NCBI GenBank assembly: GCA_016927905.1
Contig: JAFGLW010000011.1
Coordinates: 1 to 64,000 of the forward strand
DNA length: 64,000 nt
Origin: a candidate division CSSED10-310 bacterium
GTDB taxonomy: Bacteria > CSSED10-310 > JAFGJC01
Direction: 5' to 3'
Shown: positions 58,244-61,480 of the stretch, one piece after another
Layout: the number at the start of each line of letters is the position of its first letter
Position numbering within the stretch: position 1 is the first letter of the stretch
Position numbers and translations under genes: made by a program
Notes under the pieces: generated by a model
What the model was told of the DNA's origin: nothing
The model's database searches: none
Seen by the model: only the letters and a program-made list of their open reading frames with translations

Positions 58244-59344
58244 TTATTTTAGGCGCTGAACGGAATACTCCGCGATCCCGGTCAGGATATCGAGATACGG
58301 TGAATCGGGGAGTTCGGAGAGAATTGAAATCGAATCATGGATCAGCTGTTCCGAGCGGCGGGCGACCCGGTCGATGGCCCCGCTGCTGATCACGGTTTTC
58401 TTCAGAAGTCCGGCTTCTTCAGCCGTCATATCTGATTTTCCCAGCAGCCGTTGAATGAATTCCCTGGTTTTTATGTCGGACAGGTCGTAAGCGTATTTTA
58501 TGGCCAGGGTTCGTTTGCCTTCCCTGAAATCTGATCCGATGGGTTTCCCCAGCATTTCCTCGTCTCCCAGAATCCCGAGGATATCGTCTCTTAATTGGAA
58601 CGCCAGTCCGATATTGGATCCGTAAGCGCTCAGTATCCGGATCCACGGATGTTCGAGATCAATTATATTCAATCCGATCAATCCCCCTGCGACCACTGAA
58701 AACGAAAGCAGCGTGCCTGTTTTCCGTCGGAGCATCAATTCGATTTCATCGATGCGGATCCGATCCAGTGGTATTCCAGTTTGCAGAACATCCGAGACTT
58801 CACCGGTCAAGAGATCCGGCAGGACCTGTCCTTCCAGCATGGCGATCAGTTTCAGGACGATATGGGATGGAAGGTCGTCGGCCAGAGCGGATTGAGCCAG
58901 GATATCGATCACGAATCCATGCTGGGCGTCGCCGATGAGCATGGCCATTGAATTGGCCAGATGATCTTGAGGCAGCAGTGGATTTTGAAGATCCCAATCC
59001 GGGAAATCCCGGTAGATTCGATGGTGAATGGTGGGTCCACCCCTTCGGTATTGGTCCCGATCGATGATGTCGTCGTGAACCAGGGTCCAGGTGTGGAACA
59101 TCTCGATTGCCGCACCCGCTGGAACGGCTTTCCAGGGATGCCCGCCGGTCAAACCTGCCGCGGCACATGTCAGGGCGGGACGCAGGCATTTTCCGCCTCG
59201 CGAGGAGTAATCGAGTATTCGGTCCTTGATCAATCCGTCCGGAAGCCGGTTCAAAAACGGGGCTGATGTGAGTGCCGATCCGATGCGACTGGAGACTTCG
59301 TTCAGGAATTCGCGAAGGATCCGGTCTCTGTTTTGATCACTCAA
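58244..59344 (-). CDS. Polyprenyl (farnesyl/geranylgeranyl-type) diphosphate synthase
   Basis: This trans-prenyltransferase has the first Asp-rich motif in HTWTLVHDDIIDRD and the second region in AFQLRDDILGILGDEEMLGKPIGSD. GKCLRPALTCAAAGL and EGKRTLAIKYA are further signatures. It condenses isopentenyl diphosphate onto allylic diphosphates; chain length cannot be read. The start TTG at 59344 overlaps the stop of the proteasome-like gene (TTGAGTGA); the frame continues upstream but that is antisense-free coding for the neighbour. About 366 residues. Coupling to the proteasome-like pair is odd. Confidence 0.88.
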   Translation of the reverse strand: MSDQNRDRILREFLNEVSSRIGSALTSAPFLNRLPDGLIKDRILDYSSRGGKCLRPALTCAAAGLTGGHPWKAVPAGAAIEMFHTWTLVHDDIIDRDQYRRGGPTIHHRIYRDFPDWDLQNPLLPQDHLANSMAMLIGDAQHGFVIDILAQSALADDLPSHIVLKLIAMLEGQVLPDLLTGEVSDVLQTGIPLDRIRIDEIELMLRRKTGTLLSFSVVAGGLIGLNIIDLEHPWIRILSAYGSNIGLAFQLRDDILGILGDEEMLGKPIGSDFREGKRTLAIKYAYDLSDIKTREFIQRLLGKSDMTAEEAGLLKKTVISSGAIDRVARRSEQLIHDSISILSELPDSPYLDILTGIAEYSVQRLK

Positions 59345-60386
59345 CAGCCGGTCTTTCAGGATATCCCCGGAGAATATCCAGCATTGCGCATGGACTGGAG
59401 ACTGCGCTCCAGAATTTGCCGTCCACGGATTCCCATGTGCCGCCTTTCCAGAAAAGCTCATCCAGCAAATCCATGGCCGTATCTTTCGCCATCAGCCGCA
59501 CTTCCCATGCTTTGACGATCTCCGATGCCAGCTTGGCCCGGGCGTCGTTGACGGTGCGCATCCGGTGATCCGGTGTTTCCCGGCCGTCGAACAGGATGAT
59601 ATTCAGATATCCTTCAACTCCGATGTCGTGGCGGCTGGCGGCATTGACGGCGTTGATCATCTCGAACAGTCCTTCCGATCGGGGAATGGCTCCCCGGCGT
59701 TCCGGCACTGTTTTTCTGCTGCTGAACTCACTGAGATAAAGCGTCGCCACATCCCGGCCGGATCCATCAGCCAGGAAAATCTCCTGTACAGGGAAATAGG
59801 TGTGTTCGATCATGGACAGCGAAAAAATCCGGAATCCCTGCCGGGGTTCATATCCCGCGATAATCCCGGCATTCAGAAAGATTGATGTCATTTCGCCGGT
59901 CCGGCCTTTCCAGGTGATTGCGTCATGGATTGCGCTGACAGTGCCGGCATCCTTGATTTCGTATTTCTGTCCGTTGCGCATGTAATACCCGCGGCACAGG
60001 TCGTTAACCGAGAATCCGTACCGGCCGATGATCGTTTGGTCGATATGTTCCCGTTTCAGTTTTATCTGGGCTTCAAACGCCCATTTTGCCAGTTCTTCGA
60101 TGGTAATGAAGGATTCCGGGATTTTGTCCTTTTTTGTTTTCAGAAGATCGTATTCGGTTCGCACGCGTTTTCTGATATTGAACTTGAGTTCATCTCCGAT
60201 CGTCGATGTCCCCGTGTTTCCGTAGCAGGCCACGATACCCTGTTCCCGGGCGATATCGGGATCGACCACGGATTTAATTTTGTCGGCCGAATTAATGATC
60301 ATGTTTTCGGGATTCCATCCCCGCTGCTCGTCGCACACCATAGCGCCGGAATACTCGTCAAACCGGATCGCGTTGATCGATGTCAT
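59337..60386 (-). CDS. Proteasome/HslV-like Ntn-hydrolase-fold protein B (Thr-containing subunit)
   Basis: This 349-residue protein starts MTSINAIRF and then EYSGAMVCDEQR, closely like the HslV start MTTIVSVRR and its G-x4-D strand. After Met removal Thr would be residue 1, the Asp of CDE aligns with Asp17 (one residue longer turn), and K36 in SADKIKSV aligns with Lys33. ACYGNTGTSTIGDELKF resembles the strand-helix after it, and LADGSGRDVATLYL the later GSGG motif. An insertion of about 80 residues (100-180) and a C-terminal extension are unusual. ATG overlaps the stop of gene A (ATGA), behind GGAGGAG. Confidence 0.7.
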   Translation of the reverse strand: MTSINAIRFDEYSGAMVCDEQRGWNPENMIINSADKIKSVVDPDIAREQGIVACYGNTGTSTIGDELKFNIRKRVRTEYDLLKTKKDKIPESFITIEELAKWAFEAQIKLKREHIDQTIIGRYGFSVNDLCRGYYMRNGQKYEIKDAGTVSAIHDAITWKGRTGEMTSIFLNAGIIAGYEPRQGFRIFSLSMIEHTYFPVQEIFLADGSGRDVATLYLSEFSSRKTVPERRGAIPRSEGLFEMINAVNAASRHDIGVEGYLNIILFDGRETPDHRMRTVNDARAKLASEIVKAWEVRLMAKDTAMDLLDELFWKGGTWESVDGKFWSAVSSPCAMLDILRGYPERPAVE

Positions 60387-61480
60387 CGTTTTGCTCCTCC
60401 TTTGCCGGGTTTTTGCGGTTTGACGGGCGATCCAGGCGGTAATTCCGGAAAGGGGGGCAGTTTGTATCCCCGCAGGAGTTTGTGAAGGGTTGCCTGATCT
60501 TCGATCTGGTCGAAGAACAGGTGTTCAACATCCGTTCTATCTGCCTGTTTGAAAAACAGTTTTTCCAACAGGGGGTATATCTTTTCTTGGGTTATCAGGC
60601 CGTGCTGGAGAGCCCGGACCATTTCCATTGCCAGACGGGTTGTATCGCCGGAAAACTCGAAATAGCGGTTTGCATGATCTTGACCGTTTCCATCGATATA
60701 GATCAGGCTTAGACCGCCGCCCACTTCGTGAAAGTGATCATATCCTTTCAAGGTGGCCTGATAGAGAGCCAGCATTCCCCATACCGGATCGAATCCGGTT
60801 CGGCGTTGATCCAGAGTGAGATTGTTCATGATCCGAGAGAATTCGATTCCAGCTCCGTACAAACCGGCGCCTATGGCTTCAAATCCGCCTGAAATCAAAG
60901 AATACACCGTATTTTCAGCATTAATGTGAAAGGCCCTGAATTTGCTCTGGGGATCGTATCCAATCAAGACGGCCTTGTTTTTGAATATCGGATCGGTGAG
61001 ATTGCCTTTTTTTTCGTATGTAATGATTTTCCGGGCTTCTGTTTTAATGGCTTCCTGAGCCAGATCGTACCGGGTGCCGTCCTCCTCGAAGAAGCCTCGG
61101 TTCAGATCGTCCATTGTGAATCCGTAGAGGAATTTCAGCATATCGTTTACTTTGCGCTGCCGGATATCCTGCATGGTCTGCCGGATGATTTCGGCGATGG
61201 CTTCCAGATCATTCACCGGCATGTTCCGGACCTTGTCGCCGCTTTTAAAAATTTTCAGGATGTTATCCCGGGTTCTCCGAATCACTTCCTCGTGAAAACC
61301 GGGATGCCCGTATCCGCCGTATGCCGCTTCGATTCCCAGAGCTTCCGAAATCTCCCGGGGCAAGATATTCCGGATGTTATCCAGGAAAAAAGATCTTCTT
61401 CTACGGAGGAACCAATATTCCTCATCGCACAGCATGGCTCCGGATGAGGTACTGAACTGCAGAGCGGTAACGATTGCCAT
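60383..61480 (-). CDS. Proteasome-like Ntn-hydrolase-fold protein A (pseudo-subunit)
   Basis: This 365-residue paralogue of protein B starts MAIVTALQF and SSGAMLCDEEYW, so the hairpin and Asp of the fold are kept. Ala replaces the N-terminal Thr, and the Lys position is Asn (FLDNIRNI). AAYGGYGHPGFHEEVIRRT and SGGFEAIGAGLYGAGIEF follow the proteasome pattern. Like B it carries the motif FTMDDLNRGFFEEDGTRYDL in its insertion (B has FSVNDLCRGYYMRNGQKYEI). A Pro-rich tail (PPFPELPPGSPVKPQKP) ends it. ATG at 61480 follows GGGGG. It would be the inactive or structural member of a heteromer. Confidence 0.7.
   Translation of the reverse strand: MAIVTALQFSTSSGAMLCDEEYWFLRRRRSFFLDNIRNILPREISEALGIEAAYGGYGHPGFHEEVIRRTRDNILKIFKSGDKVRNMPVNDLEAIAEIIRQTMQDIRQRKVNDMLKFLYGFTMDDLNRGFFEEDGTRYDLAQEAIKTEARKIITYEKKGNLTDPIFKNKAVLIGYDPQSKFRAFHINAENTVYSLISGGFEAIGAGLYGAGIEFSRIMNNLTLDQRRTGFDPVWGMLALYQATLKGYDHFHEVGGGLSLIYIDGNGQDHANRYFEFSGDTTRLAMEMVRALQHGLITQEKIYPLLEKLFFKQADRTDVEHLFFDQIEDQATLHKLLRGYKLPPFPELPPGSPVKPQKPGKGGAKR

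Follow-up and report, generated by a model that had tools for sequence, protein, structure and literature searches.

A linked pair of predicted active and inactive proteasome-like subunits in candidate division CSSED10-310 and other bacteria

HslV is encoded by a single gene and is not known to have an inactive partner. It is not settled how the active beta and inactive alpha subunits of the proteasome arose from a homomeric ancestor. A study by Fuchs et al. 2021 (PMC8665760) reported 22 new proteasome-like families, and the operon of another relative, Anbu, carries an ATP-grasp gene (PMC6376114, PMC5666114). Here, we analyze two genes, A and B, in a 64,000-nucleotide stretch of DNA (the window; positions 1 to 64,000 of contig JAFGLW010000011.1, GenBank assembly GCA_016927905.1) from a candidate division CSSED10-310 bacterium. 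A and B are likely the subunits of a two-component proteasome-like N-terminal nucleophile (Ntn) hydrolase that Pfam and NCBIfam miss. Below, G000 denotes the genome of the window, C19 the contig of the window, C11 another contig of G000, and L-numbers denote loci. A first-pass annotation made from the DNA letters had placed two ATGA-coupled genes here, and this layout was confirmed, with both genes on the minus strand and overlapping by 4 bases:

60383–61480, minus strand: gene A, proteasome-like subunit without the catalytic Thr, Lys, and Ser, 365 residues plus stop (from residues and AlphaFold2 model; best PDB match, 20S proteasome 3hfa).
59337–60386, minus strand: gene B, proteasome-like subunit with Thr1, Asp, and Lys intact, 349 residues plus stop (from residues and AlphaFold2 model; best PDB matches, 20S proteasome).

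Structure prediction and fold search, chosen beforehand as the check on the proposed proteasome-type fold, returned that fold for both proteins. AlphaFold2 modeled B from an alignment of 22 B sequences with a predicted local distance difference test score (pLDDT) of 88.5 and a predicted template modeling score (pTM) of 0.85, and A from 21 A sequences with scores of 86.6 and 0.82. When the models were compared with the PDB by Foldseek, the first match was a 20S proteasome chain for both B (E = 2e-9, probability 1.00) and A (3hfa; E = 9e-9, probability 1.00). At E ≤ 0.001, B matched 931 chains and A 950; every one of the best 50 of the 931 and of the best 50 of the 950 was a proteasome or Anbu chain, Anbu 5nyw ranking 29th for A. 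On these matches of both models, we reject an unrelated fold. A viral fold search with B gave 21 matches at E ≤ 0.001 to targets of 146 to 388 residues, some named HslV or proteasome subunit and most unnamed or uncharacterized; a search of phage and plasmid records gave no sequence match to B.

The residues of the active site separate the two proteins. Our protein set derives from 187 matched reading frames, 78 of them distinct; without four of <300 residues (two A and two B), the set comprises 74 proteins of ≥300 residues, namely 39 B and 35 A. Without its Met, the B protein of the window starts Thr1-Ser-Ile-Asn and has Asp18 and Lys35, whereas A has Ala at the first position after Met and Asn at the Lys position. 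Across the set, Thr directly follows Met in 39/39 B and 0/35 A, which have Ala, Ser, or Gly instead; this placement is partly by construction, because the start codon taken was the one closest to the profile start, and upstream in-frame starts were not individually excluded. The equivalent of proteasome Asp17 is kept in all B (39/39) and all A (35/35), that of Lys33 in 39/39 B versus 0/35 A, and the Ser of a GSG motif in 39/39 B versus 2/35 A. With Thr1 as residue 1, every B has its Asp at position 18 and its Lys at position 34 or 35; given the start codons chosen, no B has a propeptide. The first-pass annotation had read B as carrying a nucleophilic Thr1 with HslV-like Asp and Lys and had read A, from its Asn, as catalytically dead, and both readings extend to the whole set. 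The codons concerned in the window are as follows:

60381–60383, minus strand: Thr2 of B, the predicted nucleophile Thr1 once Met is removed.
60330–60332, minus strand: Asp19 of B, equivalent to proteasome Asp17.
60279–60281, minus strand: Lys36 of B, equivalent to proteasome Lys33.
59757–59765, minus strand: GSG motif of B, equivalent to the Ser129 loop.

Chance occurrence of Thr at position 2 is ruled out by its presence in 39/39 B. That A is a decayed pseudogene is likewise ruled out, by 35 open frames of 342 to 372 residues with conserved residues of their own. On the modeled fold and the catalytic residues of B, we assign A and B to the proteasome-like family in the sense of Fuchs et al. 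2021.

The two genes are mostly kept together. A full-length A gene lies directly upstream on the same strand for 33 of the 39 full-length B genes, 14 of them with the 4-base overlap, and a contig scan found A directly upstream of B in 21/21 loci, one A being cut by a contig end. For two of the six remaining B genes, A is interrupted by a contig end (L009, L022). The survey of gene neighbors that the first-pass annotation had proposed thus identifies A/B as a conserved unit. In a tree of the 74 proteins (of a quick kind, with two long rows), a single branch parts A from B with 99% support in the Shimodaira–Hasegawa-like approximate likelihood ratio test (SH-aLRT); most pair types are represented on either side of this branch. 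The distances within A and within B mirror each other with a correlation of 0.90, a value reached in 0/5000 permutations, and A and B pick the same partner among another genome's paralogous pairs in 51 of 61 comparisons. Therefore, the A/B split is old, and pairs have since mostly been duplicated or moved as pairs. Some loci depart from the usual layout: L133:4204–7440 (G005:C154) is an A-B-B row whose tandem B genes are diverged and both of the active type, the solitary B of L132:6020–7252 (G060:C42) is basal in the B tree, and the solitary B of L131:4975–6021 (G663:C281) adjoins a gene that looks transposase-like by eye.

Gene overlap, tight linkage, and mirrored trees favor an A–B hetero-oligomer as the most likely working form. 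Cleavage of Met1 from B by methionine aminopeptidase would leave Thr1 exposed; together with Asp18 and Lys35, Thr1 would attack an amide bond, as the invariant residues and the fold suggest. A would have a structural, gating, or regulatory role, like the alpha subunits of the 20S proteasome, because it has kept the fold and lost the nucleophile, the Lys, and nearly always the Ser.

Evidence from sequence comparison is weaker than that from the fold. Searches of A and B against Pfam and NCBIfam gave no match over cut-off and weak chance hits below it. PF00227 (Proteasome subunit) matched neither A nor B of the window over its curated cut-off, nor any protein of the same genome, and among 22 B proteins it matched one, at E = 0.041; a match to this model is diagnostic of known members and does not define the fold family. 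A single-sequence phmmer search of the PDB returned two phosphatases only (E = 0.09 and 0.3). Profile searches of the PDB gave no significant match: for B, proteasome entries made up 20 of 23 matches, the best at E = 0.05, and for A they made up 11 of 18, the best of these at E = 0.018. Using HHalign against groups of known proteasome-like proteins, sorted by eye out of PF00227 matches, the alignment of B with four 20S-beta-type sequences spanned 86 columns, with E = 9e-5 and a probability of 59, versus ≤0.56 for 12 unrelated control families; the corresponding values for A were 9.7 and ≤0.54. A scored 1.02 against HslV, near controls. HslV itself was rejected as the identity of the proteins, the HHalign scores lying near control level. 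For Anbu, two sequences judged Anbu-like by eye were used, and the reference pairs Anbu–HslV and Anbu–20S-beta scored low too.

Several observations count against a two-component proteasome-like hydrolase. B scored at or near control level in HHalign against 19 HslV (0.77), 3 alpha-type (0.15), and 2 Anbu-like (0.50) sequences, so that the case for proteasome kinship stands mainly on the fold, and in the PDB profile search A matched a ribosomal protein best (E = 0.017). Two B genes have no A that we could find (L080/L132, L095/L131), the B of L026 is the later of the two in an A-B-B row, and the B of L088/L089 has its A ∼1 kb away; A is therefore not strictly needed everywhere. Locus L013 is split, its B grouping with type I (the pair type of the window) and its A elsewhere in the tree; 10 of the 61 paralog choices disagree; and co-inheritance of linked genes raises the mirror correlation as well. 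Lastly, published assays of Anbu, a known relative, showed it to be without peptidase activity (PMC6376114, PMC5666114).

Contigs carrying A/B (n = 21) come from candidate division CSSED10-310 in 10 cases, the remainder including Kuenenia (2), Bacteroidetes (2), Ignavibacteria (2), Eremiobacterota (1), and Schekmanbacteria (1); this distribution is a lower bound because the contigs were scanned with a single motif pattern. Three A/B pairs in total occur in the window's genome. A/B occurs in 7/8 genomes of the phylum, this one included, and in 0/52 other bacteria surveyed beside the phylum (relatives G001–G005 and G007 belong to the family, order, or phylum of the window by kinship). Three further surveys found A/B in 7/294, 3/294, and 2/149 genomes, including 4, 1, and 1 known seed genomes, respectively. 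Two phylum members also have a 20S-like pair of adjacent genes (L134, G001:C231; L135, G006:C52). In G001, the next gene appears by eye to be related to Pup, and A/B pairs are present alongside the 20S-like pair.

The genes around A/B differ between pair types. Neighbor families were assigned by Pfam on one or two members each (23 proteins, 3 from the window and 20 from other loci), with the others grouped by BLAST. Flanking B in the window are the following features:

60396–60401, minus strand: AGGAGG, Shine–Dalgarno-like, 9 bases 5′ of the B ATG.
58244–59344, minus strand: polyprenyl synthase (PF00348) downstream of B, a conserved neighbor of type I pairs by Pfam and locus comparison; its start, read from the sequence, is probably the TTG at 59344, overlapping the end of B.

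The first-pass annotation had put a prenyl synthase in the same operon, and in the five type I loci (L001, L009–L012) this gene lies immediately downstream in unchanged order (5/5), together with recN, nadK, tlyA, and dxs (5/5; these four names were read from translations). Type II pairs (L002, L015, L016) have an M20 peptidase gene upstream in 3/3 loci and an ATP-grasp-like gene downstream in two (L007, L040); L040 reads ATP-grasp, M20, A, B, ATP-grasp. Circularly permuted ATP-grasp-like genes were identified by Pfam on members of L007 and L008, the former just under cut-offs. Genes of the ATP-grasp-like and M20 kinds occur together next to or near type II and type III pairs (L007:6065–7465, L008:58–1425, L040, L046). 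In type III, a Memo-family gene is upstream, adjacent or near, in 2/4 loci (L008:5239–6462, L052:3034–4269). Four pairs from Ignavibacteria and Bacteroidetes (L045, L047, L048, L051; Pfam on L047 only) are flanked on one side by a cyclase-family gene, possibly a kynurenine formamidase, and on the other by kynureninase; a FAD-binding monooxygenase-like gene lies further out. At L038, the gene directly downstream is an M29 aminopeptidase, and a TldD/TldE-like pair lies ∼3 kb upstream. An Anbu-type operon was found at none of the A/B loci that were read, and neither alpha-E nor transglutaminase was seen among the 23 Pfam-scanned neighbor proteins.

These neighbors lean toward amide and peptide chemistry, yet they vary between pair types. 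A/B could thus be a metabolic amidohydrolase or peptide-processing enzyme that works with amide ligases in the manner proposed for Anbu, rather than a general protease, a possibility we take seriously though we doubt it. The M20 and permuted ATP-grasp-like genes of type II, the peptidases of L038, and the four kynureninase loci all speak for it, as does the published Anbu operon of ATP-grasp, alpha-E, and transglutaminase (PMC6376114); the window's own pair, however, has no ATP-grasp neighbor, and neighbors that change with pair type define no single pathway. As two-component hydrolases, the pair types other than type I have amide ligases and peptidases as neighbors and may act on specific peptides or amides.

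An unfoldase apparently without its peptidase occurs in the window's genome and three related ones. The first-pass annotation had noted that the window holds no HslU; an HslU-family search of the whole genome found no match within C19:1–64000 and one HslU on C11. HslU is well over its curated cut-off in G000, G002, G003, and G004 (4/4), and PF00227 detects neither HslV nor any other proteasome protein in these genomes, which are 86.5, 90, 60, and 78% complete. The order there is topA, xerC, hslU (names of the first two by our reading; the short contig of G004 shows xerC and hslU only), and the xerC frame runs into hslU (L147, G000:C11:128000–141000; L148; L149; L150). The relative G005 has topA, xerC, hslV, hslU, and the hslV match of G007 occupies the same slot; hslV is missing from this slot in 4/4 HslU-bearing genomes of the window's order. 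G001 (69% complete) yielded no ClpP and no HslU over cut-off and so bears neither way on this.

The orphan HslUs retain Walker A, the GYVG pore loop, and GARR. Their C-terminal tails differ: [DE]LS[RSQ]Y[IV]L in 11 HslUs of other genomes is replaced by EN[VI]RKKxKxGF in all four. Identity among the four is 60 to 79% in the new tail and 62 to 74% in the body, so that from sequence the tail appears kept, but not unusually so relative to the body. Along the HslU-family model, the four stop at 429 to 436, whereas 13/13 others reach 441, and the genomes of those 13 also carry a PF00227 protein. The HslU tail is the part that reaches into HslV (PMC4106860).

Type I is the only A/B type found in all four of these incomplete genomes and is therefore the first candidate for a new HslU partner; for this type we favor a peptidase role. 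In the window's order, hslV may have been lost and HslU re-tailed, the type I pair now being the peptidase of an HslU-driven machine, which would make it a second independent alpha/beta AAA+ proteasome fed by the orphan HslU; we consider this scenario somewhat unlikely. The window's pair is on C19 and hslU on C11, where the other two pairs of G000 lie ∼38 kb from it. Telling against an HslU–A/B machine are the ClpP found in all four genomes, the K-V-G-F of three of the four new tails, which resembles a ClpP-docking VGF, and G005, which keeps hslUV together with a pair that has a type I-related B. The orphan HslU might accordingly have been retargeted to ClpP, leaving A/B without an AAA+ partner. 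K-V-G-F fits the ClpP-docking motif (L/I/V)-G-(F/L) (PMC8745299), but the HslU of the window's genome has K-P-G-F, which falls outside it, and the motif was described in protruding loops (PMC8745299), whereas here it is in the C-terminal tail, the site of HslV contact (PMC4106860); we judge retargeting to ClpP unlikely. If instead the orphan HslU feeds A/B, this lineage would show directly how an AAA+ unfoldase switches its peptidase partner.

Both subunits carry an insertion at the same place:

59871–60017, minus strand: insertion of B after helix H2 (helix, beta-hairpin, helix), approximately residues 124 to 172, from AlphaFold2 secondary structure and spacing.
60977–61123, minus strand: matching insertion of A, approximately residues 120 to 168, from AlphaFold2 secondary structure.

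Lys33 and Ser129 are 96 residues apart in classical 20S numbering. The distance from Lys to the Ser of GSG is 170 to 175 residues in the 39 B proteins, and the same arrangement recurs in distant genomes and is therefore not due to chance; the unusual insertion that the first-pass annotation pointed to is genuine. In the B model, H1 and H2 are long, and a helix, a beta-hairpin, and another helix lie between H2 and strand S5; there are additional C-terminal helices and no insertion between H3 and H4 (element names are our own assignment). The A model begins with a strand at residue 3 and lacks an N-terminal helix. Lying at the site of the pore loop, the large insertion probably controls access to the active site.

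Among the families of Fuchs et al. (PMC8665760), PMI-3 and PMI-4 have a long insertion after H1/H2 but also one between H3 and H4, which B lacks. PHI (proteasome homolog with helical insertion) is the only family there described with a long H1/H2 insertion and none listed between H3 and H4, as in the B model. A/B could then be PHI, or another of the 22 families, with only the pairing new. PHI occurs in several bacterial phyla and in archaea (PMC8665760, Table 1). Against this identity, the A/B insertion holds a beta-hairpin besides helices, the available text describes no inactive partner for PHI, and its authors report an uninformative genomic context; on this comparison by description, identity with PHI or another of these families seems quite unlikely. 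No active/inactive pair is described in the available part of PMC8665760, and a term search of a 2026 proteasome review (PMC13022661) found none of Anbu, BPH, and "inactive subunit". In the titles and abstract openings listed by literature searches, we found no active/inactive tandem pair of bacterial proteasome homologs outside 20S and no HslU described without HslV. The suggestion at first pass that the pair is previously undescribed is thus likely to stand, qualified by PHI, which has an insertion at the same site and is set apart by description only.

A and B might instead be linked paralogs with independent functions, B forming a homo-oligomer and A acting as a regulator by itself; this would suit the solitary B genes of two genomes but is improbable in view of the 33/39 adjacency, mirrored trees, and paired duplication.

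As a two-component hydrolase, A/B would thus be an active/inactive pair of one fold outside the 20S proteasome, present in several phyla with two solitary B genes, and a natural comparison for the alpha/beta split. With HslV (ClpQ), it shares the N-terminal Thr nucleophile of B and the presence of HslU in the same genome; it differs in that its HHalign similarity to HslV is near control, hslV was not found in the window's genome, and the pair is not beside hslU. Anbu is likewise proteasome-like, without an AAA+ gene in its operon and with ATP-grasp neighbors, which some pair types also have, but it is a single subunit in a fixed operon of ATP-grasp, alpha-E, and transglutaminase (PMC6376114).

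The 20S proteasome (e.g., that of Mycobacterium tuberculosis, 2fhg and 3hfa) is also among the closest known systems. Unlike it, A and B have ∼70 to 80 extra residues before GSG, relative to 20S numbering, and extra C-terminal helices; the A model has no alpha-type N-terminal helix, and PF00227 recognizes neither protein. A and B share with it the modeled Ntn fold and an inactive partner subunit, and their best Foldseek matches are to its chains; B has its layout of Thr1, Asp, Lys, and Ser; and active and inactive paralogs are encoded together.

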